NCBI RefSeq assembly: GCF_028583425.1 | Contig: NC_072795.1 | Span: forward strand, 12,609,001-12,673,000 | Length of the DNA: 64,000 bases | Origin: Eublepharis macularius | Lineage: Eukaryota > Chordata > Lepidosauria > Squamata > Eublepharidae | Direction: 5' to 3' | Part shown: positions 2,164 through 59,869 of the stretch, piece after piece | How positions within the stretch are numbered: position 1 is the stretch's first letter | How the letters are laid out: each line of letters starts with the position of its first letter | Notes under the pieces: model-generated | The model's input: only the letters and a program-made list of their open reading frames with translations | Database searches by the model: none | What the model was told of the DNA's origin: nothing | Position numbers and translations under genes: made by a program

Positions 2164-2587
2164 TATTGCCAACTCCTGCTTGAGAAATTCCTGGAGCTTT
2201 GGGAGCAATATCTGGGGAGTGGGTAGTCAGAGAATAGGGACCTCAGCGGGGATGCAGTGCCAGGTTCCACCCTCCAAAGCATCCATTTCCTCCCAGATCT
2301 GGAAGAGTTAGCCATGTTAGTTTGTAGTTGCAAAATAGTAAAGAGTCCAGTAGCACCTTTAAGACCAACCAACTTTATGGTAGCATAAGCTTTCAAGAAC
2401 CACAGCTGATGAATCTGACTAAGAGAGCTGTGGTTCTCGAAAGCTTAAGCTACCATAAAATTGCTTAGTCTTAAAGGTGCTACTGGTCTCTTTACTATTT
2501 CCTCCAAGGACACTGATCTCTGCAGTATGGATACCTGTTGTAATTCTGGGAGAACTTCAGGCCCCACCTGGAGGTTGGTATCCCTAT
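2164..2587 (-). mobile_element. hAT-1 element interrupted by a PLE-like element
   Basis: A reverse-orientation hAT-1 copy that starts near TATTGCCAACTCC and ends near TATCCCTA. It is split inside its ATTTTCTCC motif by the palindromic element at 2294-2496. The two halves join correctly across the insertion, so the hAT-1 copy is older. Confidence 0.75.
2294..2496 (-). mobile_element. PLE-like family A inverted element
   Basis: Inverted arms of the family recognisable by AGTCCAGTAGCACCTTTAAG. The element is flanked by the 9-bp direct repeat ATTTCCTCC (2285-2293 and 2497-2505). The unique tail (AGTTAGCCATGTTAG, from about 2306) lies at the left end, so the element is inverted relative to most other copies. 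On the plus strand the right arm has CTGACTA, a damaged hammerhead box, then a hairpin and CGAAAGC. Confidence 0.75.
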
Positions 2588-3300
2588 AACCCACTCCCCA
2601 CCGTCTTTCAGCGCTTCCTGCAGCTGTCTGAAAGAAAAATGTCAAGAGATACTTTGTGTGTCCCACAAGTCGCTTTTTGTTCGGTCCTAAGAGATGGGAG
2701 TAGCGAGGAGACACAATTTCGTCTCCGTGATGGCAGAAAGAGCCGCAATGGAAACTTCCTTTAAGAAATCAGACTCTATGCAAAATCTTCAACCTGGGCA
2801 GAAGTTTGTTGCAATCCATAAAAAGCCCTCGAGCTTTTAAAGACGGCATTACAAATGGTTTAACTCTGCAAGAGAGCTGTGTTAAAAATAGTTTAGCTCC
2901 GCAAGTCTGATCAATCTTCCTGCAGATCTGAATGTTGAAGAGTTTCCTCCTCGCGTTGTTCTTAATATCCCCTGATAATTACATTCTTTGCATGTAACAA
3001 AGCAGGATGTGATGTTTTCTGTTAAGAAATCTAATCATCTATCATTTATTTCTGACATTGCATCCAGCAATTCTCTACCAAAATTGATTCTCAGTTTACA
3101 GTGGAATAAAAATACAATTAAAACAGTGGCTAAGGAACTATAATTAAAAAGACACAAAATATAAAAGAGTATAAAAATGCAAACCCACACCAGACAAACA
3201 GTTAATCAACCATTGTCTGCACTTGCATATGACAGGGGAGGCGGACTTTATGTCTGAGGGAGCTACTTCGTTTTTTTCGAAGATCCTTGGGAGCGACCAG
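2588..3300. other. Unassigned sequence, AT-rich from 2770
   Basis: 2770-3230 is AT-rich and looks unique. No coding frame or repeat is recognised. Confidence 0.35.
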
Positions 3301-3379
3301 CCTCCAATGACAGCTCAGTGGGTGGAGCCTGTCATAAAACGGTGAATTGATGGGTGGAGCCAGTCACAGAATGGTGATT

Positions 3380-3740
3380 TTTGGTATCTGAAGAAAGGAG
3401 CTTTGATTCTGAAAAGCTTATACCAGGGATTTTTTCTGGGGAAAGAAGTGGTGGAACTCAGTGAGTTGCCCACGGAGAAAATGGTCACATGGCTGGTGGC
3501 CCCACCCCCTGATCTCCAGACAGAGGGGAGTTTAGATTGCCCTCCACGCCACCGAGCGGCGCAGAGGGCAATCTAATCTTCCCTCTGTCAGGAGATCAGG
3601 GGGAGGGGCCAGTAGCCATGTGACCATTTTCAAGAGGTTCCGGGACTCCGTTCCATTGCGTTCCCAACTGAAAAAAAGCCCTGGCTTATATCCAGAAAAA
3701 CTCGTTGGTCTCTAAGGTGCCACTGGACTCAAATCCTGCT
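3380..3740 (+). mobile_element. PLE-like family B arm, split by a hAT-2 element
   Basis: The plus strand reads CTGAAGA (3388-3394), a short hairpin, then GAAA (3411-3414) and AGCTTATAC. After the hAT-2 insertion it continues with TTGGTCTCTAAGGTGCCACT (about 3704-3723). CUGANGA ... GAAA is the conserved hammerhead core order. The tail resembles family A (AAGGTGC..ACTGGACTC), but the middle differs (B has TATACC..GG). No partner arm is present here. Confidence 0.6.
3424..3683. mobile_element. Palindromic hAT-2 MITE
   Basis: A 260-bp palindromic element with ends CAGGGATTTTTTC / GAAAAAAAGCCCTG. It is flanked by GCTTATAC (3416-3423) and GCTTATAT (3684-3691), 7 of 8 matching. The arms contain TGGTCACATGGCT and its complement. 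A sister copy lies at 19726-20025. It inserted into the family B element. Confidence 0.85.
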
Positions 3741-3842
3741 GCCCTATGTTAAAGTGTTTTAAAACCATAATTTTACATATAGGTACAACTTCCTGTAAGG
3801 TTTGATCTCCGCTGTCTGAGCTAGTGGAGATCAATATATGAC

Positions 3843-4047
3843 ACAGGGAGGGGCTGTGGCTCAGTGAAAGAGCATCTGCTTGGCATGCAGAAGACTCCAG
3901 GTTCAATCCCCGGCATCTCCAGCTAAACAGGGCCGGGGAATGTGAAAGATATCTACCTGCGACCCTGGAAAGCAACTTCCGGTCTGAGTAGACAATACTG
4001 ACCTTGATGGACCCACCATCTGATTCAATATAAGGCAGCTTCAAGTG
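3843..4047 (+). mobile_element. tRNA-Ala-derived SINE
   Basis: The head folds like tRNA-Ala: GGGGCTGTGGCTCAGTG (A box region), the anticodon arm TTGGCATGCAGAA with a TGC anticodon, and GGTTCAATCCCC (B box). It is followed by a conserved body and a tail ending near CAGTATAAGGCAGCTTCA-like sequence. It is not a functional tRNA, because the A-box arm is mutated and there is no mature 3' end. Other copies are at 7465, 14944, 37590 and 50428. Confidence 0.85.
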
Positions 4048-4172
4048 TGTATGTGCTGAAGGCTTCCTGCAGGCCTCCCCTCCCCAAAAAATTGAAGGTG
4101 GACCTTGCTTGCATTATCTTTACATCTTTCTTGCCGTGCATGATTCTCCTTTGTAGCTAGGGGTTTCTCTCT

Positions 4173-4546
4173 GAGCGCTAAGCTACAAGAGATGAATTAC
4201 ACGAGGATGCTCACGTGAAGGGAGTCGCAATGTTAGCCTGGAACCTGAGTTTTAAAAGAGACCAGAAGGCTTTGTCAATTTCCCCTCTCTACAGAGCCAG
4301 GGAGATTGCTGATCAAACGGTTTGTTAATTTCCTCTTTGCCTCCAGAAGGCTCTGTCAGTTTCACCTCCCCTCCTAAGAGGCAAAGAGGAAATGAACAAA
4401 CCCTCTGAGCAGCCATCTCCCTGGCTCTGTAGAGAGGGGAAATTGACAAAGCCTTCCGATCTCTTTTAAAACTCAGCTTCCTGGCTAACATTGCGACTCC
4501 CTTCATGTGCTCCTGCTCGTGTGATTCGTCTCCTGTAGCTTGGCTC
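4173..4546. mobile_element. Long snapback MITE (about 175-bp arms)
   Basis: The two halves are reverse complements. The left arm starts GAGCGCTAAGCTACAAGAGA, and the right arm, read in reverse, starts GAGCCAAGCTACAGGAGAC. Landmarks such as CTCTCTACAGAGCCAGGGAG occur in both arms. It could fold into one long hairpin. A single arm is found at 10441-10660. The ends resemble the shorter 3-bp-TSD MITEs at 15134 and 40114, but no TSD is evident here. Confidence 0.75.
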
Positions 4547-4714
4547 AGAAATGTAGATGTTCAATATTTCTTTCCCAGCACAGTGAGGTTGACAGAAGGG
4601 CATCCTGGTGATACGGCTTATTTCAGCAACTACATCCTGGTGTTATGGTGAGAAACTTCCTGGCAGTCTTCTTTGTTGGTGCCTCAAAGGCCAGTGGGGA
4701 AAATCCATGGAAAT

Positions 4715-4871
4715 GGGGCAGGTACCCGGGCATTGGAGTTTGGAGGGTCACTCTAGGATTTGCCAAACATTCAAATCCTAGAGCATTGCCTCTCCCTGAG
4801 GTTGTGACATGGCTTCCGGCTTTCAAAAAAAAAGTGACGTTGTGTGCAGACGTGATGTCAGTCTGCCTGTT
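4715..4871. mobile_element. Fragment of the snapback hAT-1 relative
   Basis: Contains the hairpin CTCTAGGATTTG / CAAATCCTAGAG and later a degraded GTGACGTTG..GTGATGTCA stretch. These are internal landmarks of the family. Neither end is clear. Confidence 0.45.
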
Positions 4872-4872
4872 C

Positions 4873-5090
4873 CAGGGTTGCCAGTCTCCAGGTGGTGGCT
4901 GGAGATCTCCCGGAAGTACAACTGGTCTCCAGGTGACAAAAAACAGTTCCCTTGGAATAAATGGCTGGCTTGGAAGGTGGATTATATGGCTTTATACCCG
5001 GCTGAGGTCCCTCCCCTCCCCAAACCCCACCCTCCTCAGGCTCCACCCCCAAATCTCCAGGAATTTCCCAACATGCACCTGGCAACCGTA
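4873..5090 (+). mobile_element. hAT-1 element
   Basis: Runs from CAGGGTTGCC to GGCAACCGTA. It is flanked by GCCTGTTC (4865-4872) and GCTTGTTC (5091-5098), 7 of 8 matching. It is full length for the family. Confidence 0.8.
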
Positions 5091-5150
5091 GCTTGTTCCT
5101 ACCCCTCAAATTCTCCTGAGGGTACCAGGCTACCATCTGGCATTCCTACC

Positions 5151-5347
5151 TAGGGTTGCCGGCTCCAGGTTGGGAAATTTCTGGAGATCTTGAGGGTGGA
5201 ACCCGGAAAGGACCTCAGCAGACTACAATGCCATTGATCCCACCCACCAAAGCAACCATTTTCTCCAGAGAAACAGATCTCTGTGGCCTGGGAATCCGTT
5301 GTAATTCCGGGAGATCTCCAGCCACCTCCTGGAGGCTGGCAACCCTA
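5151..5347 (-). mobile_element. hAT-1 element, reverse
   Basis: TAGGGTTGCC to GGCAACCCTA in reverse orientation (reads GGTTGGGAAATTTCTGGAG after the first end). It lies 60 bp from the preceding copy. No convincing TSD. Confidence 0.8.
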
Positions 5348-6253
5348 CCTCCAGTCTATCTAGTTGAAACCTAAGCTAAGCCTTCGAAAAGGCAGATCCT
5401 AAGCAGGTTCGCCTGGAAGCAGGTCCCCTGCGGTTCAATAGGGCCTACTCCCAGGAAAGTTCTGCAGTCCAAATTGCTCTGCGTTTCTTCCGTACTCTAG
5501 CGCCATTTTCTTGATTTCGAGCTGCTATACAGAATCCTTCCAACCAGAAATACCGAGGAGAAAAGGGGGGGAAATACAACCACCCTTCTAAAGGTAGTAA
5601 AATCAAACAGAAGCAATCAGATAATACAAGCAGCATTAAAAGGAAGAGGGGCCGACAAAGGACTAAAGCTGAGGCACGCAAAATTTTAAAGCTTCAAGGT
5701 GCAATTCTAGTGTGTTCTGATCTAGTCTCGTATACACTTTTCCAGTTATCAGAGACTTTCCCTCCCATTCATAGATGAAGTGACAGCTTCTTTCTGGTTT
5801 TTCCAATTATCTAAATTTATTATTCAATTATGTTCTTTCGGGGTTCAGTTTGACCAGTATCTTCCCAAAAAATTTCCTTTCTTGTCCATCGTTCTTATCA
5901 AAGGAACGCTTTTAATTATCCGTCCCATCTTTATCATCACACTTAGCTGTGTGCCAAGTTTTCGGTTCACCATACGAGCAAGTTTGCCGTTATTCTGCTT
6001 CGTGTCATCTGTTCTGCAGTGAAGATATACCACCTCTGTCTTCTCATTAAGCAGACGGTTGAATTATCATCTTCGCTTGGCCTTCGCTGTATCTCTGAGC
6101 TCCTCAGATCACATGCTTGGACTGTTTCCAGTTACAAATATTCCTTTTGTCTAGGACGGTTAGCCTAGGCCAAAGGCAGGGTTTCTCAGAGTAATCACAT
6201 TGGACTTCTTTGAGGTTCAGTGATCAGGTTTGGGAGCTGGATTTACTTCTGGA
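5348..6253. other. Unassigned sequence
   Basis: 5690-6130 is AT-rich and appears unique. Opposed short frames at 5780-6022 (+) and 5845-6033 (-) have no recognisable product. Confidence 0.35.
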
Positions 6254-6458
6254 GGAGGAGAGTGCCCTCAAGTCATAGCTGACTTATGGCGACCCCTAGT
6301 GGGGTTTTCAAAGCAAAAGACTCACAGAGGTGGTTTGCCACTGCCTGCCTCTGCAACCCTGGTCATCGTTGGAGGTCTCCTGTCCAATTACTAACCAAGG
6401 CTGACCCTACTTAGCTTCTGAGATCTGACGAGATCAGGCTCACCTGGGCTATCTAGGG
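6254..6458 (-). mobile_element. 5S rRNA-derived SINE
   Basis: The reverse complement begins like vertebrate 5S rRNA: CTGATCTCGTCAGATCTCAG, then AGCTAAGTAGGGTCAG, then GGTTAGTAATTGGACAGGAG. A body follows, then a tail GCCATAAGTCAGCTATGACT that resembles the BovB LINE 3' end. It is a retroposed fusion and not a 5S gene: the 5S similarity covers only the 5' portion, and internal promoter bases are changed. Confidence 0.9.
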
Positions 6459-6612
6459 CTGCTTCCACACACGTTGGATAATGCACTTTCAATGCTCTTT
6501 AGTGATCATTTGGAACTGGATTTTCATGTGTGAAACAAAAAATCCACTTCCAAAGGAGTTCTAAAGTGTATTGAAAGTGCATTATTCAATGTGTGTGGAA
6601 ATGGCAGGGCAA
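6458..6612. mobile_element. hAT-3 palindromic MITE
   Basis: Inverted ends TTCCACACACGTTGGATAAT and, in reverse complement, TTCCACACACATTGAATAAT, followed by GCACTTTCAA in both. It sits directly at the end of the 5S SINE. The related copy at 7264-7408 has an 8-bp TSD, which supports a hAT origin. Confidence 0.75.
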
Positions 6613-6732
6613 ATTTATTTCTACAGGAAAGAATTGTGCTTCTTTTAAGAGTGTCCTATTAAAAAACGGCTTTCCTCCCCCCCCCAAAAAACAAAAAAAC
6701 CGGCTTTCCTGATATCAAAATCGCAGGAGGTC

Positions 6733-7200
6733 ATAGCCCCTCTCTATACTGCCTTGGTCAGGCCGCACCTGGAGTATTGTGTGCAGTTCTGGAGGCCTCA
6801 CTTCAAAAAGGATGTGGACAAAATCAAGAGGGTGCAGAGGAGAGCGACGAGGATGATCAGGGGTCTGGAGACTGAGCCCTACGAGGAAAGGCTGAGGGCC
6901 TTGGGAATGTTTAGTTTGGAGAAGAGGAGATTGAGGGGGGACATGATTGCTCTCTTTAAATATTTGAAAGGCTGTCATTTGGAGGAGGGCAAGGAGCTGT
7001 TCCAGTTGGCAGTAGAGGGTAGGACCCAAAGCAATGGGCTTAAATTACATACACAAAGGTACCGGCTGGATATTTGGAAAAACTTTTTCACAGTCAGAGT
7101 AGTTCAAAAGTGGAATCAGCTGCCTAGGGAGGAGGTGAGCTCCCTCTCACTGGCAGTTTTCAAGAAGAGGCTAGATGAATATTTGTCAGAGATGCTTTAG
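6733..7200 (+). pseudogene. CR1 ORF2 C-terminal remnant
   Basis: An open frame of about 155 codons encodes the C-terminal tail of the CR1 reverse-transcriptase polyprotein. Recognisable stretches are RPHLEYCVQFW, RVQRRATRMIRGLE, ERLRALGMFSLEKRRLRGDM and RVVQKWNQLPREE, ending VFKKRLDEYLSEML and a natural-looking stop at 7198-7200. In intact CR1 this tail follows the reverse-transcriptase fingers and palm. All catalytic parts (endonuclease, YXDD box) are missing, so it cannot act. The frame has no stop or shift over the fragment, which suggests a fairly recent 5'-truncated insertion. There is no start codon of its own; the first in-frame ATG-like codon at 6754 is TTG. Confidence 0.9.
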
Positions 7201-7263
7201 GCTGATCCTGCACTGGGCAGGGGGTTGGACTAGATGGTCTGTATGGCCCCTTCCAACTCTATG

Positions 7264-7408
7264 GCTGATTCCGCAAACGTTGGATAATGTACTTTCAATG
7301 CGCTTTATCAGTCGTTTGAGGTGGATTTTTTGTTCCGCACACAAAAAGATCTATTCCAAATGATCTATAAAGAGGATTGGAAGTGCATTATCCAACGTGT
7401 GCGGAATC
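7264..7408. mobile_element. hAT-3 palindromic MITE inside CR1
   Basis: 145 bp with ends GCTGATTCCGC / GCGGAATC. It is flanked by the perfect 8-bp duplication ACTCTATG (7256-7263 and 7409-7416). It lies in the CR1 3' terminal repeat, so it is younger than that CR1. The shared inner motif is CGTTGGATAATG. Confidence 0.85.
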
Positions 7409-7464
7409 ACTCTATGATTCTATGATTCTATATGTTGCTATCCCCACTGTAGCCACAGAGAAAG

Positions 7465-8391: not shown

Positions 8392-8596
8392 GAGAGTCCA
8401 GTAGCACCTCTAAGACTAACCAACTTTATTTAGCGTAAGCTTTCGAGAACCACAGCGCTCTTTGTCGGATGCATCTGATGAAGAGAACTGTGGTTCTCAA
8501 AAGCTTATGCTACAATAAAGTTGGTTAGGCTTAAAGGTACTACTGGATTCTTTACTATTTTGAAAGTACAGACCAACACAGGTAACTCCTCTGGAT
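8392..8596 (+). mobile_element. PLE-like family A inverted element
   Basis: Two arms bearing AGTCCAGTAGCACCT..AAG. On the plus strand CTGATGA (8475-8481) is followed by the hairpin GAGAAC-UGUG-GUUCUC and then AAAAGC, so the GAAA box has one change. The unique tail (ACAGGTAACTCCTCTGGAT) is at the right end. Flanks are too diverged to fix the TSD. Confidence 0.75.
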
Positions 8597-8756: not shown

Positions 8757-8915
8757 ATCTTGCTGAGCAAAAAGCTGTATGTGAAATAAATAAGTATATA
8801 TTCATATATTCCCAATATAGCTTCACCACCAACACAGTAGGAGCTGCCCTGTTTTATAGACTGGGGGTGATAGGTGGGCACTTCATCCAGACCTTTTGCC
8901 TAACAGGGAATTGTG

Positions 8916-9782
8916 ACTCAACAATTTTGGAGCCGAAATATACTCAAATTTTTGTGTTATAAAGTGCGAAAAGTGCAATAAATACAAATATAATACAAAT
9001 TATGTTATACAAAATTTTGAAGTGCCATGATACAAAGTCCAAGCATATATACATATATCACAATGTTTCTGTTGTCCGGAATCGTCAGAAAAATTTTTTA
9101 GAAAAATTTTTATAAAGTGCTAGTTGCCAGTTGCCAGTACATCAAAGGGAGCCGGTAGGTAGGGAGTTGTGCACCGTACTTATATATTCACAGTCCATAA
9201 ATATGAATGCAATTAGACGAACGCCGACGGGGGTTTGCTTGCAAATATCATTAACCCGTTTCGTGAGTACTAAGACTCACTTCCTCTTGGGCTTAAGGCG
9301 ATTCGGACTGGTCATAAGTCTGTTACAAGCACATGGCATACTCTCCTACCACTCCATACATTCCACGGACATCCGTGGACGAAACGGGTTAATGATATTT
9401 GCAAGCAAACCCCCGTCGGCGTTCGTCTAATTGCATTCATATTTATGGACTGTGAATATATAAGTACGGTGCACAACTCCCTACCTACCGGCTCCCTTTG
9501 ATGTACTGGCAACTGGCAACTAGCACTTTATAAAAATTTTTCTAAAAAATTTTTCTGACGATTCCGGACAACAGAAACATTGTGATATATGTATATATGC
9601 TTGGACTTTGTATCATGGCACTTCAAAATTTTGTGTAACATAATTTGTATTATATTTGTATTTATTGCACTTTTCGCACTTTATAACACAAAAATTTGAG
9701 TATATTTCGGCTCCAAAATTGTTGAGTCCCGGTTTGGTTGTTTTTGTTTCATATTGGTACCGGGGCCGCCCGTTGTTGTTTA
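8916..9782 (+). mobile_element. Young inverted-repeat retroelement (family D)
   Basis: Two 349-bp arms, 8916-9264 and 9379-9727, are reverse complements with a single mismatch (T/C near 9010 and 9639). They surround a 114-bp spacer. A 54-bp unique tail (9728-9782) follows the right arm. The whole is flanked by a perfect 17-bp duplication CCTAACAGGGAATTGTG (8899-8915 and 9783-9799). Each arm ends inward in ACGAAACGGG, preceded by a perfect hairpin. A long TSD plus a one-sided tail points to target-primed retrotransposition rather than cut-and-paste. This matches families A-C and is most like Penelope-type elements. No transposase or reverse transcriptase is encoded. Open frames in the arms repeat each other because the arms are copies. 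Confidence 0.8.
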
Positions 9783-11884: not shown

Positions 11885-12150
11885 GAGTTCTTTGCAGCCA
11901 GGTTGGTCTAAAAATAAATCCAAAAAGGCAAAGCAGTGTCCATGTAATACCTTTATTAGGACTAAACCAATGATAGATAATGGTGTGTAAGCTTTGATCA
12001 ACTTAATGACATATAACATTGTGAAAGTTTTTGAGTTCCCCTGAAATGAATTCCTTTCCTGATGAAGAGTTCTGGGGAACTCGAAAGCTTGTGTTCTGTT
12101 ATATGTCACTTGGTTAGTCCTAGTAAAGGTATTATATAAATAGTGTGTTA
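11885..12150 (+). mobile_element. PLE-like family C inverted element
   Basis: Arm fragments AATACCTTTATTAGGACTAA and GTCCTAGTAAAGGTATTAT lie in opposite orientation. On the plus strand CTGATGA (12059-12065), the hairpin GAGUUC-UGGG-GAACUC and GAAA (12083-12086) form an intact hammerhead core order. The arm sequence differs from families A and B, but position and layout are the same. A fragment of the family recurs at 37545-37592. Confidence 0.7.
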
Positions 12151-14943: not shown

Positions 14944-15035
14944 CTGGGGAGGGGCTGTAGCTCAGTGGACGAACATCTGCTTGGCATGCAGAAGGTTCCA
15001 AGTTCAATCCCCAGCATCTCCAGTTAAGGATCAGG

Positions 15036-15488
15036 CCATGGTGGTGGAGACTGCTGTCAAGTCATAGCTGACATGGTGGTGGAGAGTGCCATCAAGTCAT
15101 AGCTTGATGGCACTCTTGATGGCAAGAGACTAAGAGCGGGACCACAAGTGACGCCTGACACAGGTTGGACACTTGCCAGCTTCCCTCAAGTTTTGATGGG
15201 AAATGTAGGCAGCTTGGCGGAATGTTGGACAAGTGACAGTTGAAAAGTCCACTGGACAGCAGTCGGAGAGCCAAGCTGCAAGACCGGGACGCCTACATTT
15301 CCCATCAAAACTTGAGGGAAGCTGACAAGTGTTCAACCTGTGTCAGGTGTCACTTGTGGTCCCGCTCTAAGAGAGTCTCAGGTCTGGTCTTCCTTGGAGG
15401 TCTCCCATCCAATTACTAGCCAAGGCCGACCCTACTTAGCTTCTGAGATCTGATGAGATCAGGCTCACCTGGGCTATCCAAGTCAGGG
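15036..15488 (-). mobile_element. 5S rRNA-derived SINE inside a tRNA SINE
   Basis: A reverse 5S-head SINE (CTTAGCTTCTGAGATCTGAT near its right end) with an 11-bp TSD TAAGGATCAGG on both sides. Its tail region (CATCAAGTCATAGCT) is partly duplicated at 15055-15120. It is interrupted by the MITE at 15134-15367. Confidence 0.85.
15134..15367. mobile_element. Snapback MITE, 3-bp TSD TAA
   Basis: Ends GAGCGGGACCACAAGTGAC and its complement. The inverted repeat extends about 78 bp (through TTTTGATGGGAAATGTAGGC). It is flanked by TAA at 15131-15133 and 15368-15370. It is the innermost, and so the youngest, of three nested insertions. Confidence 0.8.
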
Positions 15489-19076: not shown

Positions 19077-19296
19077 TCAAAAAGAGTCCAGTAGCACCTT
19101 TAAGACTAACCAATTTTATTGTAGCATAAGCTTTCGAGAATCAAGTTCTCTTCGTCAGATACATGATACAGAACGAAGACGAAGAGAACTTGATTCTCGA
19201 AAGCTTATGCTACAATAAAATTGGTTAGTCTTAAAGGTGCTACTGGACTCTTTTTGATTTTGCTACTACAGACTAACACAGCTAAATCCTCTGGAT
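19077..19296 (+). mobile_element. PLE-like family A element with 15-bp TSD
   Basis: The two arms are nearly perfect inverse copies (GCTACTGGACTC .. CGAAAGCTTATGCTACAATA). A unique tail (GCTACTACAGACTAACACAG and on to TCTGGAT) follows the right arm. It is flanked by the perfect 15-bp duplication CACAGAACAATGAAA (19062-19076 and 19297-19311). On the minus strand CTGACGA (19152-19158) precedes the hairpin GAGAA-CUUGA-UUCUC and GAAA (19132-19135), an intact hammerhead core. On the plus strand the matching box is AAGACGA. Confidence 0.9.
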
Positions 19297-28789: not shown

Positions 28790-29241
28790 TAGGGTTGCCA
28801 ACCTCCAGGTTAGCAGAAAAGAAAAAAAAAACAGGTGCAAGGTGCATGAATTTATAGAGGATATTGAGATCGCTACATGTTTCACTTTAGGGCGTTGCCA
28901 GGGGATCTTCTATACAGCATTTCAAGTATCACCTTGAACAATGGAAATGCTGTATAGAAGATCCCCTGGCAACGCCTTAAAGCGAAACATGTAGCGATCT
29001 CAATATCCTCTATAAATTCATGCGCCTTGCACCTGTTTTTTTTTTCTTTTCTGCCTGCTGGTACAGATCGTGCCAGGAGATCACCAAGACAACAGAGATC
29101 AGTTCCCCTGGAGGAAGTGGTTGCTTTGGGGGATGGAGCCTACGCCATTATACCCTGCTGAGGCCCCCTCCCCAAATTCTACCTTCCCAGGATCCACCTC
29201 TAAATCTCCAGGAATTTCCCATCTAGGAGTTGGCAACCCCA
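28790..29241 (+). mobile_element. hAT-1 element carrying a hairpin insertion
   Basis: TAGGGTTGCC to GGCAACCCCA with flanks CTTACAAT (28782-28789) and CTTACAAC (29242-29249), 7 of 8 matching. Its 5' third is replaced by the palindrome at 28813-29055. Confidence 0.8.
28813..29055. mobile_element. Young palindromic element (family E)
   Basis: Arms of about 110 bp are inverse copies with only about three differences, around a 20-bp centre. They run from GCAGAAAAG..ACAGGTGCAAGG to the inner GATCTTCTATACAGCATTTC. The arms include GCGAAACATGTAGCGATC. No TSD could be fixed. The near identity of the arms implies recent origin or gene conversion. Confidence 0.7.
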
Positions 29242-30846: not shown

Positions 30847-31264
30847 GAGGTAGAGAACACCCTCAAGTCACAGCGGACTTATGGCGACCCCTGTTGGGGT
30901 TTTCATGGCAAGACACTAACAGAGGTGGTTTGCCCTTGGCCGTTTCCAGACGGCTTACCGGCCCCTGGAACGTCACGGCACGTTGCGGGGAAAACGCAAA
31001 ATATTGCGTTTTCTCGCGCGAGTTTTGCGCGACGTCATGCGACATCACCCAAAACTCGCGTGAGAAAACACAATATTTCATGCTTTCCCCGCAACTTGGC
31101 GCGACGTTCCAGGGGCCGGTAAGCCGTTTGGAAATGGCCCTTGTCTGCCTCTGCCGCCCTGGTCTTCGTTGGGGTCTCCCATCTGATTAATAACCAAGGC
31201 CGACCCTGCTTAGCTTCTGAGATCTGATGAGATCAGGCTCACCTGGGCTACCCAGGTCAGGGCC
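30847..31264 (-). mobile_element. 5S rRNA-derived SINE with TSD, split by a MITE
   Basis: Flanked by the perfect 11-bp duplication CTTCCAAAGGG (30836-30846 and 31265-31275). Tail ACACCCTCAAGTCACAGCGG, body AGAGGTGGTTTGCCC, reversed 5S head GACCCTGCTTAGCTTCTGAG. Interrupted by 30938-31139. Confidence 0.92.
30938..31139. mobile_element. CpG-rich snapback MITE, 3-bp TSD CTT
   Basis: A 202-bp inverted repeat, ends GGCCGTTTCCAGACGGC and inverse. Flanked by CTT (30935-30937 and 31140-31142). Arms contain AAAACGCAAAATATTGCG and GCGCGAGTTTTGCGCGACGT and are strikingly CpG-dense, which suggests youth, since methylated CpG decays. Confidence 0.82.
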
Positions 31265-33649: not shown

Positions 33650-34185
33650 CAGAATAGAAGAGTCCAGTAGCACGTTTAAGACTAACCAACTTTACTGTAG
33701 CATAAGCTTTCGAGAATCACAGCTCTCTTCGTCAGATGCATGGAGGGTAAGAAGAAACTGGTCAGATATGTAGGTGAAGGGGGGTGGAGTAGATGCAATC
33801 AGTAGCTTCTGATAATGGGATCAGTTGGCTTCTGATAATGAAATCAGTTACTTGTAGTAGAGCCTCAAAAAATTAGATACAAACTCATAAATGTTCCTCT
33901 CCACGGAAATCTTTAGTAAAAGGCGAAAGATTTATACGATCTGAAGAGAAACCTCTTACTAAAGATTTCCGTGGAGAGGAACATTTATGAGTTGGTATCT
34001 AATTTTATCTACTCCCCTCTCCGCCTATATATCTGACCAGTTTCTTCTTACCCTCCATGCATCTGATGAAGAGAGCTGTGAGTCTCGAAAGCTTATGCTA
34101 CAGTAAAGTTGGTTAGTCTTAAAGGTGTTACTGGACTTTTTCGATTTTGCTACTACAGGCTAACACGGCTAACTCCTCTGGATCT
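33650..34185 (+). mobile_element. Long PLE-like family A element with 16-bp TSD
   Basis: Flanked by the perfect 16-bp duplication ATAATATAGTATGATG (33634-33649 and 34186-34201). The arms extend beyond the hammerhead region through CTCCATGCAT and TACCCTCC into CTGGTCAGATAT. A further inner inverted pair (CTCCACGGAAATCTTTAGTA and inverse) surrounds a short centre at about 33918-33955. Both strands keep an intact core: minus CTGACGA at 33729-33735 with TTTC at 33708-33711; plus CTGATGA at 34063-34069 with GAAA at 34087-34090. The tail (CTACTACAGGCTAACACGG and on to CTGGATCT) is at the right. This is the longest family A copy and best shows sequence upstream of the core. Confidence 0.9.
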
Positions 34186-35721: not shown

Positions 35722-36065
35722 TATTTGTTTATTTGCTTCATTTATACCCCACCTTTTTCACTGGTAGTAAAGAGTCCAGCGGCACCTTTAAGATTAACCA
35801 ACTTTATTGTAGCATTAGCTTTCGAGAGCCACAGCTCTCTTCGTCAGATGCATCTGGCGAAGAGAGCTGTGGCTCTCGAAAGCTTATGCTACAATAAAGT
35901 TGGTTAGTCTTAAAGGTGCTACTGCTTTACTATTTTGCTACTACAGACTAACACAGCTAACTCCTCTGGATCTTTCTCACTGGGAATCTCAAATGGCATA
36001 CCTCGTTCTCTTCTCTTCCATATTACCCTCACAGCAACCCTGTGAGGGAGGTTATTTTGACGGCG
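35722..36065 (-). mobile_element. CORE-SINE 3' part, reverse, split by PLE-like A
   Basis: TTATTTGCTTCATTTATACC before the insertion, and TATTACCCTCACAGCAACCC then TGTGAGGGAGGTTATTTTG after it, are the reverse of a CORE-SINE 3' region. Confidence 0.6.
35765..35971 (+). mobile_element. PLE-like family A element with 12-bp TSD
   Basis: Flanked by CTTTTTCACTGG (35753-35764) and CTTTCTCACTGG (35972-35983), 11 of 12 matching. Minus strand: CTGACGA (35841-35847), hairpin GAGAGC-UGUG-GCUCUC, GAAA; an intact core. Plus strand: CTGGCGA (35854-35860), same hairpin, GAAA (35878-35881); one change in the first box. Tail ACAGACTAACACAGCTAACT at the right. Confidence 0.9.
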
Positions 36066-46666: not shown

Positions 46667-46814
46667 AAACTTCCAAGGTAGTCCAGGGATGCTACGCCAA
46701 GGGAGGCAATGGCAAACCACTTCTGTTTGTCTTTTGCTTTGAAAACCCAAGGGGTTGCCACAAATTGGCTGTGATTTAACAACATTTGCCAAGAACAGGT
46801 GAAATGGGGTCGCT

Positions 46815-46972
46815 GAGTTGAGAAGTAGAATTGAAAAGTAGAATGCCAGTTGAGAAGTAGAATGCCAGTTGAGTGGAATGCCAGTTGAGAAGTAGAATGC
46901 CAGTTGAGTGGAATGCCAGTTGAGAAGTAGAATGCCAGTTGAGTGGAATGCCAGTTGAGAAGTAGAATGCTA
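46815..46972. repeat. 35-bp minisatellite
   Basis: About four and a half units alternating GAAGTAGAATGCCAGTT and GAGTGGAATGCCAGTT. The first unit is degenerate (GAATTGAAAAGTAGAATG). It is nearly perfect in the centre, suggesting recent expansion. The apparent repetitive peptide on the minus strand is a by-product. Confidence 0.92.
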
Positions 46973-47002
46973 GCCCTCACTTGCATTAACAAGTGAGGGC
47001 TG
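46973..47002. repeat. Perfect 12-bp-stem hairpin
   Basis: AGCCCTCACTTG and CAAGTGAGGGCT separated by CATTAA, immediately after the minisatellite. Confidence 0.85.
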
Positions 47003-47739
47003 GTGCCTGTGGACTTGTGGACTCCCCATAGCGTTTGACTAACCACTGTTGGAAACAATGCTGGAGTAGGTCAGTCACTGGTCTCATACAGCATGGATAC
47101 TCTTAAGTTTTTAGTGGGAAGGGAGCCTCCAACACCCTGGCTTGCATGAAGAGCAAAAAAAGGGGTCTCCTACTGGCCCTGGTCACTGCTTGGAGAAGTT
47201 CACAACAACTCCCAAGGAAGAGTTCTTCACATTTGCTCTGAGCAGTTAGTACAGGTGCAAGAACAGGTGAGTGCCGAGGGGGAGGGGGGGGACAACTGCA
47301 TTTTAAAATAGGAATGTTTTCCCACATATCTGCTAGGTGAGAATGGACAGAGATTCTCCAAGTCTGTGAGAAACAGGAAGTTCTCCAGATGATTGTCTAG
47401 CCTACAAGGTGATCAAAGTGTAAAGAAAACAATGCCGTTGAGGAATCTAAACAGCTCCCGTTCCCTTTTCTTCTCGGCAGGAGACGAGGAGGAGAAGCGG
47501 CTTGTTGTCAGGTAATTAAGATGGAAGGAATTGTCCTTGGCTGAGGTGTCAAAGCAGGAAGCTTCGCAACAGAGTGATAAATAGCTACATCCCAGCCCCA
47601 AGAGTTTTGGAAATGCAAACAAGCTAATAAGCAGGACTGTCTGTTCTTTTTCCTCCCTCCATCTCTATCCCCCACCCCACTGAAGCCTGAAATAAAGATC
47701 CTAGACAAACCCGGCTGATGCCTTTGGGTTGGAATATGA
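47003..47739. other. Unassigned sequence
   Basis: No repeat recognised. Confidence 0.3.
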
Positions 47740-47822
47740 CGAAGAGAACTTGATTCTCGAAAGCTTATGCTGCAATAAAATTGGTTAGTCTTAAAGGTGC
47801 TACTGGACTCTTTTTGATTTTG
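47740..47822 (+). mobile_element. PLE-like family A single arm
   Basis: ATGACGAAGAGAACTTGATT then CTCGAAAGCTTATGCTGC, ending GCTACTGGACTCTTTTTG. The first box is ATGACGA, lacking the initial C. Confidence 0.7.
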
Positions 47823-49779: not shown

Positions 49780-49910
49780 TCTCTGTCTTTTGGTGCTACA
49801 CCTCTGAAGATGCCAGTCACATCTGCTGGCAAAACATCGAGAACTACAATGCCAAGACCACGGCGATACAGCCCGGAAAATCCACAACAACCATTGTTCT
49901 CCAGCCATGA
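49780..49910 (+). mobile_element. PLE-like family F arm with hammerhead-like core
   Basis: CTGAAGA (49804-49810), stem GCCAG / CTGGC, then AAAACATC, followed by ATACAGCCCGGAAAATCCAC and AACAACC. This tail is a repeat I recognise from other reptiles, where the core reads GGCGAAACGTC; here G of GAAA is A. The 5' boundary is uncertain. Confidence 0.6.
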
Positions 49911-53949: not shown

Positions 53950-54734
53950 CTGGAAATGAAGTTCTAATTAGGAAAGTCCCTGAGCATGTCTGGTGGATGA
54001 GACTGGACACGGCTGGGGAGTGGGCGAGGACTTTGTAGTGGGCATTTAGGCCCTCTGGCTGGAAGTTATCACTTGATAGCAATTATTGTACCATATGTAG
54101 AATGAGCAGGCTTCTGAGGAATGGACTGAAACACGGGGTGAGGCGGGATACAGTCACACCCCTCCTTTTCAGTCTTCCCTAAATGGCACCCCTGGTTGCA
54201 ATTAAACAGCACCAGCACGGGGTTATCTTTGCACGTTCCGGAGCAATGGAATGATTCCTTTCCAACCCCAAACATTACGATCAGTCAGACTGGGAGCAGG
54301 AGTCTTCCCAAAGGGAAATTTAATTGGGCGCATCTCCATCCAGGCCGACGTCCCGTTAATTCCTATTTTAGGCTTTCTGAAACCTTTAAAGCCACAAAGC
54401 GAGCGATAAATAAAGCACCGCGAGGCCCATTCCCATCTGTTGCCAAGATGAGTTCTGTGAAAGCAATAACAGAATGGGGGAGAGAAGGGAAGAGCTCTTT
54501 CGGGCTCTGTTTCATGCACAGAAAACTGGTGTGAGGTTCTGGTAAATAAGCAGCAGGGAAAGCCGCCGTGGAAGACAGGCTGAGTCTCTGGCTGGATCTC
54601 TGGCTGAATCGGCCTTTGTGAGCGCATTGGCAGAGTTTAGAAATGCTTATGGGATGCTGCTGTGAGGGTCAGGCTTCTGGCAGCACAAGAGACAATTCCT
54701 GCCTCCCTACAGCCATGGCACCCTGATCACCAAT
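53950..54734. other. Unassigned sequence
   Basis: No repeat recognised. The opposed 112- and 134-codon frames at 54196-54627 have no domain. Confidence 0.35.
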
Positions 54735-54790
54735 TTGATGATGATGATGATGATGACGATGACGACAGCGGCGGCGGCAGCGGCGGCGAC
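54735..54790. repeat. (GAT)n/(GGC)n trinucleotide tract
   Basis: About seven GATGAT units grading into GACGACAGCGGCGGCGGC. It would encode acidic then Gly/Ser residues, but no surrounding exon is supported. Confidence 0.85.
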
Positions 54791-54887
54791 GTCCTCCTCG
54801 TCTCTGATGGAAACTTGTATCAGCTCAGCAAGGCCAATCAATGATAACATGCGATCTTTATTTATTATTGATTGTGTTGTGTGTAAT

Positions 54888-55142
54888 TCAAATAACAACA
54901 ACCAAGTTTGATTTATATACCACCCTTCAGGACAACAATGCCCACTCAGAGCGGTTTACAAAGTATGTTGTTATTATTTGCACAACCAACACTTTGTGAG
55001 GTTGGTGGGGCTGAGAGAGCTCTGAGAGAGCTGTGACTGACCCAAAGTCACCCAGCTGGCTTCAAGTGGAGGAGTGAGGAATCAAACCTGGTTCTCCAGA
55101 TTAGAGTCCCGCGCTCGTAACCACTACACTAAACTGGCTTAG
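54888..55142 (-). mobile_element. MIR-like CORE-SINE, reverse
   Basis: Nearly identical in layout to 22158-22412: TTGATTTATATACCACCCTT, GCTGAGAGAGCTCTGAGAGA, CAAACCTGGTTCTCC and GTAACCACTACACTAAACTG. Confidence 0.88.
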
Positions 55143-55659
55143 AAATAAGTGGCATCTCCCCCCATGCTGCCCGCTAAGGAATTGAGCAGTTGAAGTGGAA
55201 AGTCAATATGGTCCCTTCCCACACACAAGACCCCACTCCCCACCCCTGCTGCTCTTTGGTGGCACCCATAACCAGCTGTCTGACAGCCAATCCAATGTGA
55301 TGTTGGGTGATCTATAATTTTTAAAAGAAAAATAGTATCCGCGTGTGTGTGTGTGTGGGGGGGGGATATTCCCTTTCCCTGCCCCATTTTGGCAATTGAA
55401 ATAAAATTTGTGGGCTGTGAATAGCTTTAGAAGAACGTGCATCTCTCTTTGCCTGGCCTTTTCCCTTTGTAGCATGAGTAACAGTGTTTGGGGGGCAATT
55501 TTGACTGGAAAATCATGTATGAGCGTGTGTGTGTGGGGGGGAGATTTAAAGTCTGTCTCTATCAGAACTTAACCCCCAATTCATTCTTTTAAACATTTCT
55601 GGGAAGATCCATTCACAAATCTTTCTGGGATACGTCTGGTTTGGCCCCAAGACAGCTGA
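55143..55659. other. Unassigned sequence with (GT)n
   Basis: A (GT)nGn tract at 55343-55369 and another GTGTGTGTGTGG near 55526. No family recognised. Confidence 0.35.
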
Positions 55660-55765
55660 TTTGGCTTATTTTTTATTTTATTTATTTTATTTATTCGATT
55701 TATATACCGCCCATCCCCAGGGGCTCTGGGCGGTGAACAGTTAAAATAGATAAAATCACTCAATG
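55660..55765 (-). mobile_element. L2-like LINE 3' tail, reverse
   Basis: (TTTTATTTA)n then TTCGATTTATATACCGCCCA and CTCTGGGCGGTGAACAG, the inverse of the end at 57660-57730. Confidence 0.75.
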
Positions 55766-56940
55766 AGAGTGCTTTAAACGGCTTGGTGGAATCTGAAGAA
55801 ATCTCGTCTTGTCCAAGCTAGGAAGGCCAGGAGGGAGTGATTGGGAAGAAAAATAATTCCATATTGAAATAAATGTTGCTAGTCGTTAAGGAACCACTGA
55901 TTTATTTCGAGAGGATAGGACCAGCAGAGTTCTCATCACTACCCGATTAGTAATGGATGAAGAAATCTTTACAGATGATGTGGTACACACTGAAATTAAT
56001 GCACGGAGGGTCTCTGCTCCTGCCCATGTGTGATTGATGCTCTAGGAGCATAGAGCATGTCTATGTGTGCAGGGAGTGTACAATCCTAGGTTCTGCTCCT
56101 GTGATCAGAAATGTTTGGAAAAGCAGTGTTAATGGTCCCAAGGAGGGAAGCTACATGTAGGCGCTTTCTAAGCATGCATAGATGTTATGCCCACAAGCTG
56201 ATAATCACCTATAGGTGGAGAAGCAGGGCCAGCGCACTCATAGCTGCTCCACCACTACACATGCTGATTTCTGTGCATGTACATTCACCTGCTGAAGGCT
56301 TAAAGAGGGATGCAATCTTGAACCAAGAGATTTAAGGACTCTCTCCTAGATGGGGCTGACGGTGAAAAAATGAACCCATGTGACGCCATTTTAGTCTTTA
56401 AACTCTCTTGTAACGTCTGGAGCTTAAGGGGGAAAAAGAACTTGTTTTTCTTTTTGCAAATGTGTAACCTTTGCTCGAGTAATCGCAATTAAAAAATGTA
56501 GCGCCCCACCCCCCAAACTACAAGGGGTGTTTTAAGCTTGCTTTAAGGAAAATATGTAACAGCAAAAGTCAGTAAATAAGTTTTGACGTGTGCAACAGAA
56601 AGATCAACATGTACAACCAAGAACAGAGTTCTTCAGCATATTGCCTAGTGAAAAGAAATGCTGCAGGGGTGATGGAAAACCTTTAATGTAAAGCTGCTTT
56701 TAATATTCCTGTGCATATTTAGTGATGAAAAACAAGTCTGTGACAATAAATAATAGAACATTTACTTTCAGTATCTAGGTAAATTCTCTCTGTGATCTAG
56801 ATTGCAAAATAAAGACCAAGCATGCTGTTTGCCTAAATTAGAAGGAGTTGTCTTTTTCCTGAATCCCTTCCTTGAACTTGGAGGAGACAAAATGATTTCC
56901 CTACCATGACATCTTCTTACACCCCCTGGCTGATAATTTA
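55766..56940. other. Unassigned unique block
   Basis: 1.2 kb, AT-rich from 56500 to 56900, no repeat or exon recognised. Confidence 0.35.
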
Positions 56941-57733
56941 GACAGCAGAGACAGTTCGGCCCCTAATCCATGCAACAGTCACCTCCAGGATAGATTACTG
57001 CAACTCACTCTACGCTGGGCTGCCCTTGGGCCTGACCCGGAAGCTGCAGCTGGTCCAGAACGCAGCAGCATGCGTTCTTACAGGAACGCCTGTTCGAGCG
57101 CATATCCATTCTGTGCTGCGCCAGCTGCACTGGCTTCCAGTGGAGTTCCGGATCCGGTTCAAGGTATTAACTTTGGTGTTTAAAGCCCTCCACAGACTGG
57201 GACCAGCATACCTGTGGGACCGCCTCTCTCATTATGTCCCCTGCAGGGTGCTACACTCTGCAGATAAACAACTCCTGGTGGTCCCTGGCCTGAGGGACAT
57301 CCGGCTGGCCTCCACCAGGGCCAGGGCTTTTTCTGCCCTGGCCCCAGCCTGGTGGAACGCTCTCCTGCCGGAGATCCGGGCCCTGCGGGACTTATTATAG
57401 TTCCACAGGGCCTGTAAAACGGAGATGTTCTGCCAGGCCTTTGGTTGAGGACCAGCGGTGTCTGCCCTTATCCTATCTAAGATCGCCACCTCTTCTATGA
57501 CTGCCCTCGGCTATGCGTTTTTACCCACAGCTATATGACCTATGCAGGTCTTTTATTAGTATCCAAAGTAGCCTATATATAATGGCACCAGAGTATTTTA
57601 ATATAAGTTTTTAAATCTGTTTTTAAAGTTGACTATTAATTTATTGTGTTTTAATGATGATGTGAGCCGCCCTGAGCCCATTCGTGGGGAGGGCGGGATA
57701 TAAGTCAAGTAAAATAAATAAATAATCAATGCC
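56941..57733 (+). mobile_element. L2-clade LINE 3' end
   Basis: The C-terminal ORF2 remnant plus the 3' UTR, ending GTGAGCCGCCCTGAGCCCAT, GGGCGGGATATAAGTC and (AAATA)n. 5'-truncated. Confidence 0.88.
56948..57448 (+). pseudogene. L2-type ORF2 C-terminal remnant with premature stop
   Basis: A frame open from at least 56948 encodes the region after the reverse-transcriptase palm: RIDYCNSLYAGLP, then KLQLVQNAAACVLTG, QLHWLPVEFRIRFKVLTLVF, KALHRLGPAYLWDRL and RARAFSALAPAWWNALLPEI. A TAG at 57398-57400 interrupts it. The same frame continues FHRACKTEMFCQAFG to a second stop at 57446-57448, which looks like the ancestral C-terminus. So one nonsense change separates the two ends. The catalytic YXDD motif and endonuclease are missing by truncation. 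The clade call (L2 rather than CR1) rests on the YCNSLYAGLP and LHWLPV signature and on the tail. Confidence 0.88.
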
Positions 57734-58131
57734 CCCATGAGCACCAAGCCAGTGCAGTGAAGGAGGAGAAGGTGGGTGTGAGTGATGCCTCCCGTTGCCC
57801 CCTCTGAGGGCACTGCTGTCTGGGGCACGAGCCCCTTCCTCATCACCCTGCTTTGGACTGTGCCATGGGCATCATGAAAGGAGGACACTAAAAACAACTG
57901 GTCCTGCTGGAGAGACGGCACATGGCATTTGTGGTGGGTGCTGCCTCTTTCTGGAGGTTCACGAAGGATTAAGCTCAAACACTTTGGGGGTTTTTGGTGG
58001 GGGGAAGGCTCAAGGTGCAGGAAGTGTAATTGTCTTGATTGTAATGAAATCTGATTTTGTTCTTTCTGGGGGAAGGCGTTTGCTTTTGTTACAAGCCCTT
58101 TTGAGATCAGAGGAAAAGCAGACTATAAACT
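57734..58131. other. Unassigned sequence
   Basis: No repeat recognised. Confidence 0.3.
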
Positions 58132-58330
58132 CAGAGCCAGTTTGGTATGGTGGTGAGAGTGTCCAATTAGGATCTGGGAGACCCAGGTTCGAATCTCCAC
58201 TCTACCATGGAAGCTCACTTGGGCCAGTCACTCATTCTCAGCCTAACCTACCTTTCAGGGTTGTTGTTGTAAAGATAAAATGGAAGAGAGGAGAATGACG
58301 TAAGACGTTTTGAGACCTCATTGGGGAGAA
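58132..58330 (+). mobile_element. MIR-like CORE-SINE
   Basis: GAGCCAGTTTGGTATGGTGG then TGAGAGTGTCCAATTAGGAT (tRNA head), CCAGGTTCGAATCTCC (B box), CTTGGGCCAGTCACTCATTC (CORE) and GTTTTGAGACCTCATTGGGG (L2-like end). Confidence 0.88.
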
Positions 58331-58410
58331 TGGCAGGGAATGAATGAATAAACGAACAAATGAACGAACAAACAAACAAATGAACAAACAAATGAACGAA
58401 CGAACGAACT
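58331..58410. repeat. (GAAT)n/(GAAC)n/(CAAA)n tetranucleotide tract
   Basis: AATGAATGAATAAACGAACA and GAACGAACGAACGAACTC; expanded from the SINE tail. Confidence 0.92.
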
Positions 58411-58705
58411 CATGGCCACTGGATGGAATGATGAATTTTCAGCCCGTAGTTTTTGAAAAAGGGAGTGAATAAATATATGCAAAAAGGTATCAACGCATAG
58501 TAACTGAAACAGATGAGATGGTGATTTCCAAATTCAGAGATGTCAGATCATGGAATCTTGTGAACTCCAAGTGGTATCTTCATGAACACGAAACTGGACG
58601 GACTGTTGTTCTGATTCTAAAAGGCAATTCTTATTCATTTCTCTAGCAGTCCTTGAGTATCTCAGCCTTTCTAAAACAAGCCTTCTTAAGTTACGGTTGG
58701 CCAGT
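58411..58705. other. Unassigned sequence
   Basis: No repeat recognised. Confidence 0.3.
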
Positions 58706-59121
58706 TAGGGTTACCAACTTCCAGGTGGAGCCTGGAGTTCTCCTGGAATTACAATTTATGTCCAGAACACAGAGATCAGTTCCTTTGGAGAAAATGGCAA
58801 CTTCAGAGAGTAGACTCCGTGCTATCAGATCCTTTCTGAGCTCCTTCTCCACATCAGGCCCCAAATATCTACGAATTTCTCAGCTTGATGGGGTTGCCAG
58901 ATCCAGAATGGGAAATTCCTGGAGATTTTGGGGGTGGAACCAGGAAAGGGTGGGGTTTGGGGAGGGAAAGGGCCCCAGTGGGGTATAATGTCATAGACCC
59001 CACCCTTCAAAACAACCATTTTCTCCCGGGGAACAAGTCTTTGTCACCTGGAGATCAGTTGTAATTCTGGGAGATTTCCAGCCACCACTTGGAGGCTGGC
59101 AACTGTAAGTTGGTAATCCTA
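58706..59121 (+). mobile_element. hAT-1 element interrupted by another hAT-1
   Basis: TAGGGTTACCAACTTCC to AGTTGGTAATCCTA. The interruption at 58889-59107 is a reverse copy of the same family. Confidence 0.8.
58889..59107 (-). mobile_element. hAT-1 element inside hAT-1
   Basis: TGGGGTTGCCAGATCC to GAGGCTGGCAACTGTA, reverse orientation; self-nesting of one family. No clean TSD. Confidence 0.8.
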
Positions 59122-59648
59122 GCAACCATTATTGATTTTGCAAAACACCCTTTTTTAAAAAACCCTAGCAAGCCACAGTCAGAAAGCAGAAGCAAACAAG
59201 ATATACTTTGCAAGAGGTGACTTGCAAGAAACAGGAATAATTTTCAGTAGAAGACGCAAAAGAACACCCCACTCACAGTGGTACTGTTTTTTTGGCCAAA
59301 CGGACCTAAAGCCCTGAACTTTAACAGCCTGAAATCGGGACCTGAAACTTTTCTTGATGTAGTGAGGAAAATTTCGCCTGCCTATAAAGCAGCTTTTAAA
59401 AGTATTCTCCTGGCCATTAAAAAGCTCTTGATTTATCTAGCTCAGAATGCTCTCTGGCCTCAGGGGAAGCAGAAAATGTGCCTGGGTCAGTGGCCCAGAT
59501 GTACTTTCCCACCCTAAATGGGGCAGTCCTTCAGACCTGGGGCATGAAAGCAAAACCCTGAGAAAATATAGCAGGGTTATTTCACCTTAGGCCTTAAAGC
59601 CTACAGTGGAGTCCTGTCAGTTTCCCACCAAAGTACTTCGAGAAATTC
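59122..59648. other. Unassigned sequence
   Basis: No repeat recognised. The 79-codon frame at 59278-59517 has no domain. Confidence 0.3.
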
Positions 59649-59660
59649 TCTACAGCGTAG

Positions 59661-59869
59661 TAGTGAACAGTCTAGTAGCACCTTTAAGACTAACCAATTT
59701 TATTGTAGCATAAGCTTTCGAGATGTACAACACTTTTCATCAGATGCATCTGACGAAGAGAGCGGTGGGTCTCGAAAGCTTATGCTACAATAAAGTTGGT
59801 TAGCTTAAAGGTGCTACTGGACTCTTTGCTATTTCGCAACTACAGACTAACACAGCTAACTCCTCTGTA
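59661..59869 (+). mobile_element. PLE-like family A element
   Basis: Flanks TCTACAGCGTAG (59649-59660) and TCTACACCATAG (59870-59881), 10 of 12 matching. Plus strand: CTGACGA (59750-59756), hairpin, GAAA (59774-59777). Minus strand: CTGATGA (59737-59743), a different hairpin closing on UGUACA, and GAAA (59716-59719). Both cores are intact although their hairpins differ. Tail ACAGACTAACACAGCTAACT at the right. Confidence 0.88.

Follow-up and report, generated by a model that had tools for sequence, protein, structure and literature searches.

Candidate Minimal Hammerhead Motifs in the Head-to-Head Arms of Penelope-Like Repeats in Eublepharis macularius

Inverted Repeats and Hammerhead Cores at the Locus

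The stretch of DNA considered here, referred to below as the window, comprises 64,000 nucleotides (nt) of the genome of the squamate Eublepharis macularius (contig NC_072795.1 of assembly GCF_028583425.1, positions 12,609,001 to 12,673,000). It harbors several families of inverted repeats whose arms carry the boxes CUGANGA and GAAA, separated by a hairpin, as in the core of a hammerhead ribozyme. An initial annotation, made from the letters alone, counted eight intact cores in these families, placed them at the inner end of each arm, and regarded the repeats as non-autonomous derivatives of Penelope-like retroelements (PLEs). All eight cores are present, at 3388(+), 12059(+), 19158(-), 33735(-), 34063(+), 35847(-), 59743(-), and 59750(+), and their position at the inner ends of head-to-head arms is borne out. 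As judged from sequence comparison, the repeat families are head-to-head arms of PLEs that match the pseudo-long terminal repeats (pseudo-LTRs) of these elements, and their cores quite probably correspond to a minimal type I hammerhead in which stem I would comprise 4 bp and the stem III strand would be self-complementary (AGCU or ACGU); such an RNA is likely to cleave itself only as paired copies or together with the protein of the element.

The two boxes alone prove little, because the pattern CTGANGA-N(6-30)-GAAA matches the window 16 times against a mean of 6.5 in 100 shuffles, and 16 matches were reached by one shuffle. The whole fold was defined more strictly, by a stem I with at least three of four pairs (G-U allowed), CUGANGA, a stem II of 4 bp or more containing no more than one mismatch, and, on the 3′ side, GAA followed by a self-complementary 4-mer starting with A and by H. 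This fold has five matches in the window and none in 30 dinucleotide shuffles, and six matches in 200 kb drawn from 20 places elsewhere in the genome, with none in 10 dinucleotide shuffles. Family A accounts for the five matches in the window and for one elsewhere, and a Poseidon-like family for the other five elsewhere, matches within one family being not independent of each other. The lineage names Poseidon and Neptune are presumptive for this genome, being given by analogy without a database match.

Intactness holds for five of the eight cores, namely 19158(-), 33735(-), 34063(+), 35847(-), and 59750(+), all of which fit the whole fold, and fails for the other three. According to our reading of the sequences, stem II is broken in 59743(-), the GAAA of 3388(+) is out of register with the GAA of the family, and 12059(+) combines a good stem II with a stem I in which two of four positions pair, one of them as a wobble. 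In unconstrained minimum-energy folds of monomers, stems I and II are both formed in the five complete A copies; 59743(-) and 3388(+) form stem I without stem II, and 12059(+) forms neither. A covariance model (R1) built from 23 aligned copies, with which the window was searched to an E-value of at most 1, finds 16 copies, 11 from the training set and five new, the weakest at E 0.029. All eight cores are among them, and many of the copies are decayed (Table 1).

Table 1. Candidate hammerheads and related features of the window (positions counted from its first nucleotide).
Feature	Position	Strand	Score or remark
Family A minimal hammerhead, complete (stem I GCAU/AUGC, stem II, GAA-AGCU-U)	34057..34100	+	69.9 bits
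Family A minimal hammerhead, complete	33698..33741	-	72 bits
Family A minimal hammerhead, complete	59744..59787	+	66.4 bits
Family A hammerhead, core boxes and stem I intact, stem II broken	59706..59749	-	52.7 bits
Family A minimal hammerhead, complete, H17 = A	35810..35853	-	69.5 bits
Family A hammerhead, single core change (CUGGCGA)	35848..35891	+	68.8 bits
Family A minimal hammerhead, complete, stem I GUAU/AUGC with one G-U	19122..19164	-	65.1 bits
Partner arm, hammerhead 5′-truncated	19178..19206	+	35.3 bits, model positions 9-38
Family A hammerhead with AAA in place of GAA	8469..8512	+	71 bits
Family A hammerhead, core decayed	8431..8474	-	60.2 bits
Family A hammerhead, lone arm, core change CUGACAA	17593..17636	-	64.3 bits
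Family A hammerhead, decayed	2409..2452	+	47.2 bits, outside training set
Partner arm, decayed	2381..2414	-	19.5 bits, E 0.029
Family A hammerhead, decayed, lone arm	47730..47772	+	42 bits
B-type hammerhead, GUAU/AUAC stem I kept, GAA out of register	3382..3425	+	44.8 bits
F-type hammerhead, stem II strong, stem I weak	12053..12096	+	50.3 bits
Poseidon-type arm with decayed hammerhead, absent from the initial annotation	49788..49891	+	nhmmer E 4.9e-23
ATGCAT head-to-head joint common to both arms	35848..35853	.	same at 8469-8474 and 59744-59749
Short head-to-head element	19082..19294	.	15-bp target-site duplication CACAGAACAATGAAA a few bases outside the ends
Longer head-to-head element with captured U5 small nuclear RNA copy inside	33658..34181	.	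16-bp target-site duplication a few bases outside the ends

Register of the Family A Fold

Family A has the consensus AUGCAU-CUGAYGA-A-GAGAR...YUCUC-GAA-AGCU-U-AUGCUA, which, taken one register earlier, reads GCAU-CUGAYGA-(stem II)-GAA-AGCU-U/AUGC, the slash marking the predicted cut. Covariation among the copies indicates that stem I is GCAU, before CUGA, paired with AUGC, after AGCUU, so that its 4 bp lie directly against the core. The stem III strand would then be the self-complementary AGCU and residue 17 would be U.

Pair changes were scored in an alignment of 23 copies, 22 of them distinct, of which 11 are from the window and 12 from other loci. Across the 22 distinct rows, stem I is paired in 92% of cells, and three of its four pairs show changes on both sides (four rows have U-A for C-G, one has G-C for A-U, and one has C-G for U-A). 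B-type copies likewise keep stem I by means of paired changes. When stems I and II are taken together, seven of nine pairs are changed on both sides, a number reached by none of 500 shuffles; the copies are related to each other, which weighs against taking the counts as independent events or the shuffle figure as a probability. In the structure as a whole, 89.9% of cells pair, compared with 26-51% when the partners are slid. Covariation cannot be scored in AGCU, which is invariant in all 23 rows; each of the two families has its own self-complementary strand at this place, AGCU in family A and ACGU in the Poseidon-like family. A joint MAFFT alignment of families A and P misplaced the longer stem II of P and was kept out of the counts.

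Coding Relatives of the Arms

The locus L031 was picked because four pairs of arms among the matches listed in the genome-wide search (see below) lie 2,992-2,994 nt apart. Its approximately 3 kb between two A-type arms encode RVT_1 (1.3e-11) and GIY-YIG (1.3e-5) domains, both above the Pfam cut-offs. Its coding region consists of three open stretches split by stops, so that this copy is broken. The element is flanked by a 9-bp target-site duplication and bears an extra tail of about 34 nt (counted manually) on the right arm only. Exact target-site duplications, of 15, 16, and 9 bp, were found in three of the six elements for which both ends could be located, and in two of the five testable elements (15 and 16 bp) when the window alone is considered. 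A seventh element, whose right end was not found, was left out of this count.

A second line of evidence is provided by the Poseidon-like family, which has the same fold with a different stem I (CCU/AGG) and with ACGU as the stem III strand. At locus L006, a PLE-type reverse transcriptase (RT) frame, 1607-3031(-) (RVT_1, 1.1e-11), lies upstream of the predicted hammerhead near 1532, a position counted manually. In Poseidon-like copies the cut is predicted, also by manual count, 26 nt after the ATG, and the arms occur both with and without an extension. The family of the arm at 49788-49891(+) has near-identical copies elsewhere in the genome. Pfam gave only sub-threshold matches to the C-terminal frame of the Poseidon-like element, T5orf172 being the best, and in our own reading this frame contains a GVY...YIG motif. 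The A-type RT is 39% identical to the Poseidon-like RT over 171 amino acids.

The Penelope-like origin proposed in the initial annotation is thus borne out, both by the element with RVT_1 and GIY-YIG that shares the arms, the duplications, and the tail, and by the Poseidon-like family, in which the hammerhead lies downstream of a PLE-type RT frame. The description as non-autonomous derivatives is true of the short copies in the window, although these match the terminal repeats of a PLE that has coding copies in the genome. On the present evidence, the earlier interpretation was right in kind (Penelope-like, hammerhead, probably dimer) and wrong as to stem I, stem III, and the cut site.

Copy Number, Arrangement, and the ATGCAT Joint

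The pattern GCATCTGAYGA-N(6-24)-CGAAAGCTTATGC occurs 24,988 times (12,598 + 12,390) in the 2.24-Gb genome, and its reversed control 0 + 0 times. The looser pattern CTGANGA-N(6-30)-GAAAC gives 46,210 + 47,111 matches against 25,477 + 24,855 in the control. In 20 forms of stem II, read off the first 100 matches listed, the fifth pair is A-U, G-C, or G-U, which amounts to a two-sided change within one family; 6 of the 20 forms have a mismatch within the first five pairs.

Rfam contains hammerhead families for types I, II, and III, HH9, and HH10. The Rfam covariance search suggested in the initial annotation found no hammerhead family in the window, either at the gathering threshold or at E-values up to 10, and none in seven loci each holding a Poseidon-like arm. 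Because the Poseidon-like hammerheads of the same genome are also missed, the silence of Rfam is uninformative and cannot decide the matter, and this test was dropped.

Among the 100 matches listed, neighbors within 4 kb are arranged head to head in 21 cases, in the same direction in 11 (a single array contributing seven), and tail to tail in none, and distances of 38, 635, 1629, and about 2993 nt recur. The fixed head-to-head distances of 635, 1629, and about 2993 nt suggest internally deleted PLE derivatives that spread as such. An exact ATGCAT joint, which contains the 5′ strand of stem I, was found in three of the five A-type pairs of the window that could be scored; the scoring omits decayed pairs around 2403 (window) and around 6029 (L019). 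In the Poseidon-like pairs, and in a B-like pair of L026, the joint lies elsewhere than at ATGCAT. Inside an A-type element, at L032:31-552, ten hammerhead units of 52 nt follow each other head to tail, eight of which match the exact pattern, and thus form a natural concatemer.

A full copy of U5 small nuclear RNA at 33846-33960(-) (Rfam, 81.8 bits) is continuous with one arm's pseudo-LTR and hammerhead, as is an apparent truncated U5 at about 33960-34005(+) with the other arm, as if the template had been a U5-PLE chimera.

Relation to Known Systems

Inverted pseudo-LTRs have been studied in rotifers, reportedly by Arkhipova and colleagues. The Penelopes of bdelloid rotifers (2013; PMC3846280) resemble the elements described here in their head-to-head arms, palindromes at the joint, one-sided tail, target-site duplications (of 8-10 bp in the rotifers), and foreign sequence captured between the arms. 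Their palindrome is ascribed to self-priming on an antisense template (PMC3846280), whereas in some family A copies the hexamer at the joint doubles as the 5′ strand of stem I.

Minimal type I hammerheads without a stem III, possibly active as dimers, have been described in PLEs (Cervera and de la Pena 2014 and Lunse et al. 2017, as cited in PMC7761336, PMC7229834, and PMC6155905). The published minimal hammerheads (Lunse, Weinberg and Breaker 2017; through PMC7761336 and PMC11620745) and those of family A are alike in their location in pseudo-LTRs, in having a stem II and no ordinary stem III, and in the proposed action as dimers. Since hammerheads of this sort have already been published, family A belongs to a known kind and is another case of it, as far as the 2014 and 2017 papers can be compared through the reviews that cite them.

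In PAc, the Poseidon element of the green anole (Frangieh et al. 2024; PMC11167929), the PLE protein nicks and extends both strands, and an optional tail is delimited by two internal start sites of reverse transcription. Its hammerhead lies at the start of the frame, with the cut 26 bp after the start codon, and cuts only when the protein is present (PMC11167929). The Poseidon-like family described here is similar to PAc, as described in print (PMC11167929), in the position of the hammerhead, in the cut predicted 26 nt after the ATG, and in the arms with and without an extension. Family A differs from PAc in belonging to another PLE lineage, as the identity of its RT to the Poseidon-like RT of this genome indicates, and in having its own stem I and the AGCU stem III.

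In animal retrozymes (Cervera and de la Pena 2020; PMC7229834), too, the hammerhead is of type I; in amphibians its stem III is weak, and it acts mainly as a dimer. The retrozymes consist of direct tandem repeats of about 170-400 nt (PMC7229834), in contrast to the head-to-head arms matching PLE ends that are found here. A literature search returned no title or abstract opening about these particular head-to-head families, a weak negative, as most subscription papers were outside its reach. Viral contigs were searched for a related protein and for the motif itself, and none was found.

Possible Mode of Action and Alternative Explanations

Dimer action, which the initial annotation had also considered, is the likely mode of cleavage for a fold of this sequence. 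If transcripts contain a pair of sense copies, their AGCU strands would pair with each other, and stem I would likewise join the two copies, giving a double hammerhead with stems I and III between copies and stem II within each. Cleavage after GAA-AGCU-H, just before AUGC, would trim the RNA of the element to unit length. Short copies may arise when the enzyme of the element nicks the two strands of the DNA and, primed on each of them, starts inward synthesis of complementary DNA (cDNA) at the tail; the two cDNAs would then be joined head to head, for some family A copies at the ATGCAT hexamer. The transcript of a head-to-head insert contains one sense and one antisense core, so that, without contact with a further sense RNA, inserted copies are probably silent. 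Minimum-energy folds of dimers favored other structures and are no support for the double hammerhead on their own; this arrangement is nested and, by computation, roughly level in stability with two monomers.

Several observations weigh against the interpretation as minimal hammerheads that act in pairs at the ends of PLEs. The computed minimum for a dimer is an extended duplex of lower energy than the double hammerhead, and 7 of the 88 stem I cells in the alignment are unpaired. Three of the six elements with both ends share just 5-7 flanking bases. Furthermore, the anole hammerhead did not cut without protein, its mutants left insertion in vitro unchanged, and RNA-seq revealed no ends at the cut site (PMC11167929). 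The 38-nt spacing expected from the ATGCAT joint is seen in only 2 of the 21 head-to-head pairs among the matches listed, and ATGCAT is therefore one joint among several.

The palindrome of family A may have a double use, in that the same letters would serve in RNA as a strand of hammerhead stem I and in DNA, as ATGCAT, as a landing pad that anneals two cDNAs. Ribozyme and insertion joint would then evolve as one device, and the genome would be swamped by its short head-to-head products, which would bring tens of thousands of cores able to work only in pairs. This idea is doubtful, and the modest weight first given to it was reduced further because so few of the pairs show the joint.

The alternative that survives best is that the boxes were inherited from an old PLE and are kept merely by the youth of the copies, so that the RNA has no present activity or role. 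Such a relic deserves real weight, even if it is rather unlikely: it would suit the anole mutants and the absent RNA-seq ends (PMC11167929), the many decayed copies in the window, and the presence of sense and antisense cores in one RNA of head-to-head copies. However, family A and the Poseidon-like family keep the same fold despite different stems I (GCAU/AUGC and CCU/AGG) and different stem III strands (AGCU and ACGU), B-type copies maintain stem I by paired changes, and the anole hammerhead does cut once its protein is added (PMC11167929).

The register favored in the initial annotation, with an intramolecular stem III AGC-UUAU-GCU, a cut after the following A, and no convincing stem I, is very improbable. 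Its AGC and GCU are paired in 87.9% of alignment cells, and its structure as a whole also exceeds 500 of 500 shuffles, a result against our register that stem II alone can explain. The two-sided changes in that structure all fall within stem II, with none in the three pairs of stem III, two of which are broken in 4 of 22 rows, precisely those rows that keep stem I by U-A in place of C-G. Because AGC-UUAU-GCU takes up the stem I strand, that register was left without a stem I, a lack contradicted by the GCAU/AUGC stem and its two-sided changes in related copies. In addition, the Poseidon-like family (GAAACGUCAGG) is without any hairpin of the AGC-UUAU-GCU type. The cut, which our register predicts before AUGC, thus appears to have been misplaced.

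It is very improbable that the copies are retrozymes, small non-autonomous elements spreading as circular RNA that canonical hammerheads of type I excise from direct tandem repeats, even though the type I topology, a weak stem III like that of axolotl retrozymes (PMC7229834), and the array of ten head-to-tail units are reminiscent of them. A coding PLE has ends that match the arms, and the usual arrangement among the matches listed is single or head to head and not direct tandem, with the 52-nt array as the clearest exception; this array sits within a family A element, and in our own reading its unit boundary differs from the cut site. On account of the arrangement of copies and the coding-PLE ends, retrozymes were rejected as the main class. 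Finally, a merely accidental resemblance of CUGANGA...GAAA strings in repeats to a hammerhead, which would agree with the commonness of the bare pattern (16 in the window against a shuffled mean of 6.5) and with the lack of an Rfam hammerhead up to E 10, is extremely improbable and was rejected on the zero shuffled matches to the full fold and the count of the A motif in the genome (24,988, with 0 for the control), two-sided pair changes and the equal silence of Rfam on the Poseidon-like hammerheads also speaking against it.

Other Repeats of the Window

The window also contains a perfect inverted repeat of 350 nt with a 114-nt spacer (8915-9728), an inverted repeat of 111 nt that is 97% complementary with a loop of 20 nt (28813-29054), and a tandem array of interleaved 16- and 19-nt units (46802-46973). 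Stretches resembling 5S ribosomal RNA and transfer RNA, at 15373-15485(-), 31146-31264(-), 3850-3921(+), and 14951-15022(+), are probably heads of short interspersed nuclear elements, the 5S-like ones being members of repeat family D3.

Implications

Curated RNA models miss a motif that has about 25,000 matches in a single genome of 2.2 Gb. The register with stem I makes the dimer idea testable using two short transcripts, and, if this stem is real, copies of CTGANGA-N(6-24)-GAAAGCTN would be expected throughout the genome to combine GTAT with ATAC far more often than GCAT with ATAC. As proposed here, stem I would be tied to the joint of some PLE insertions, a connection that bears on what the hammerhead does for PLEs.

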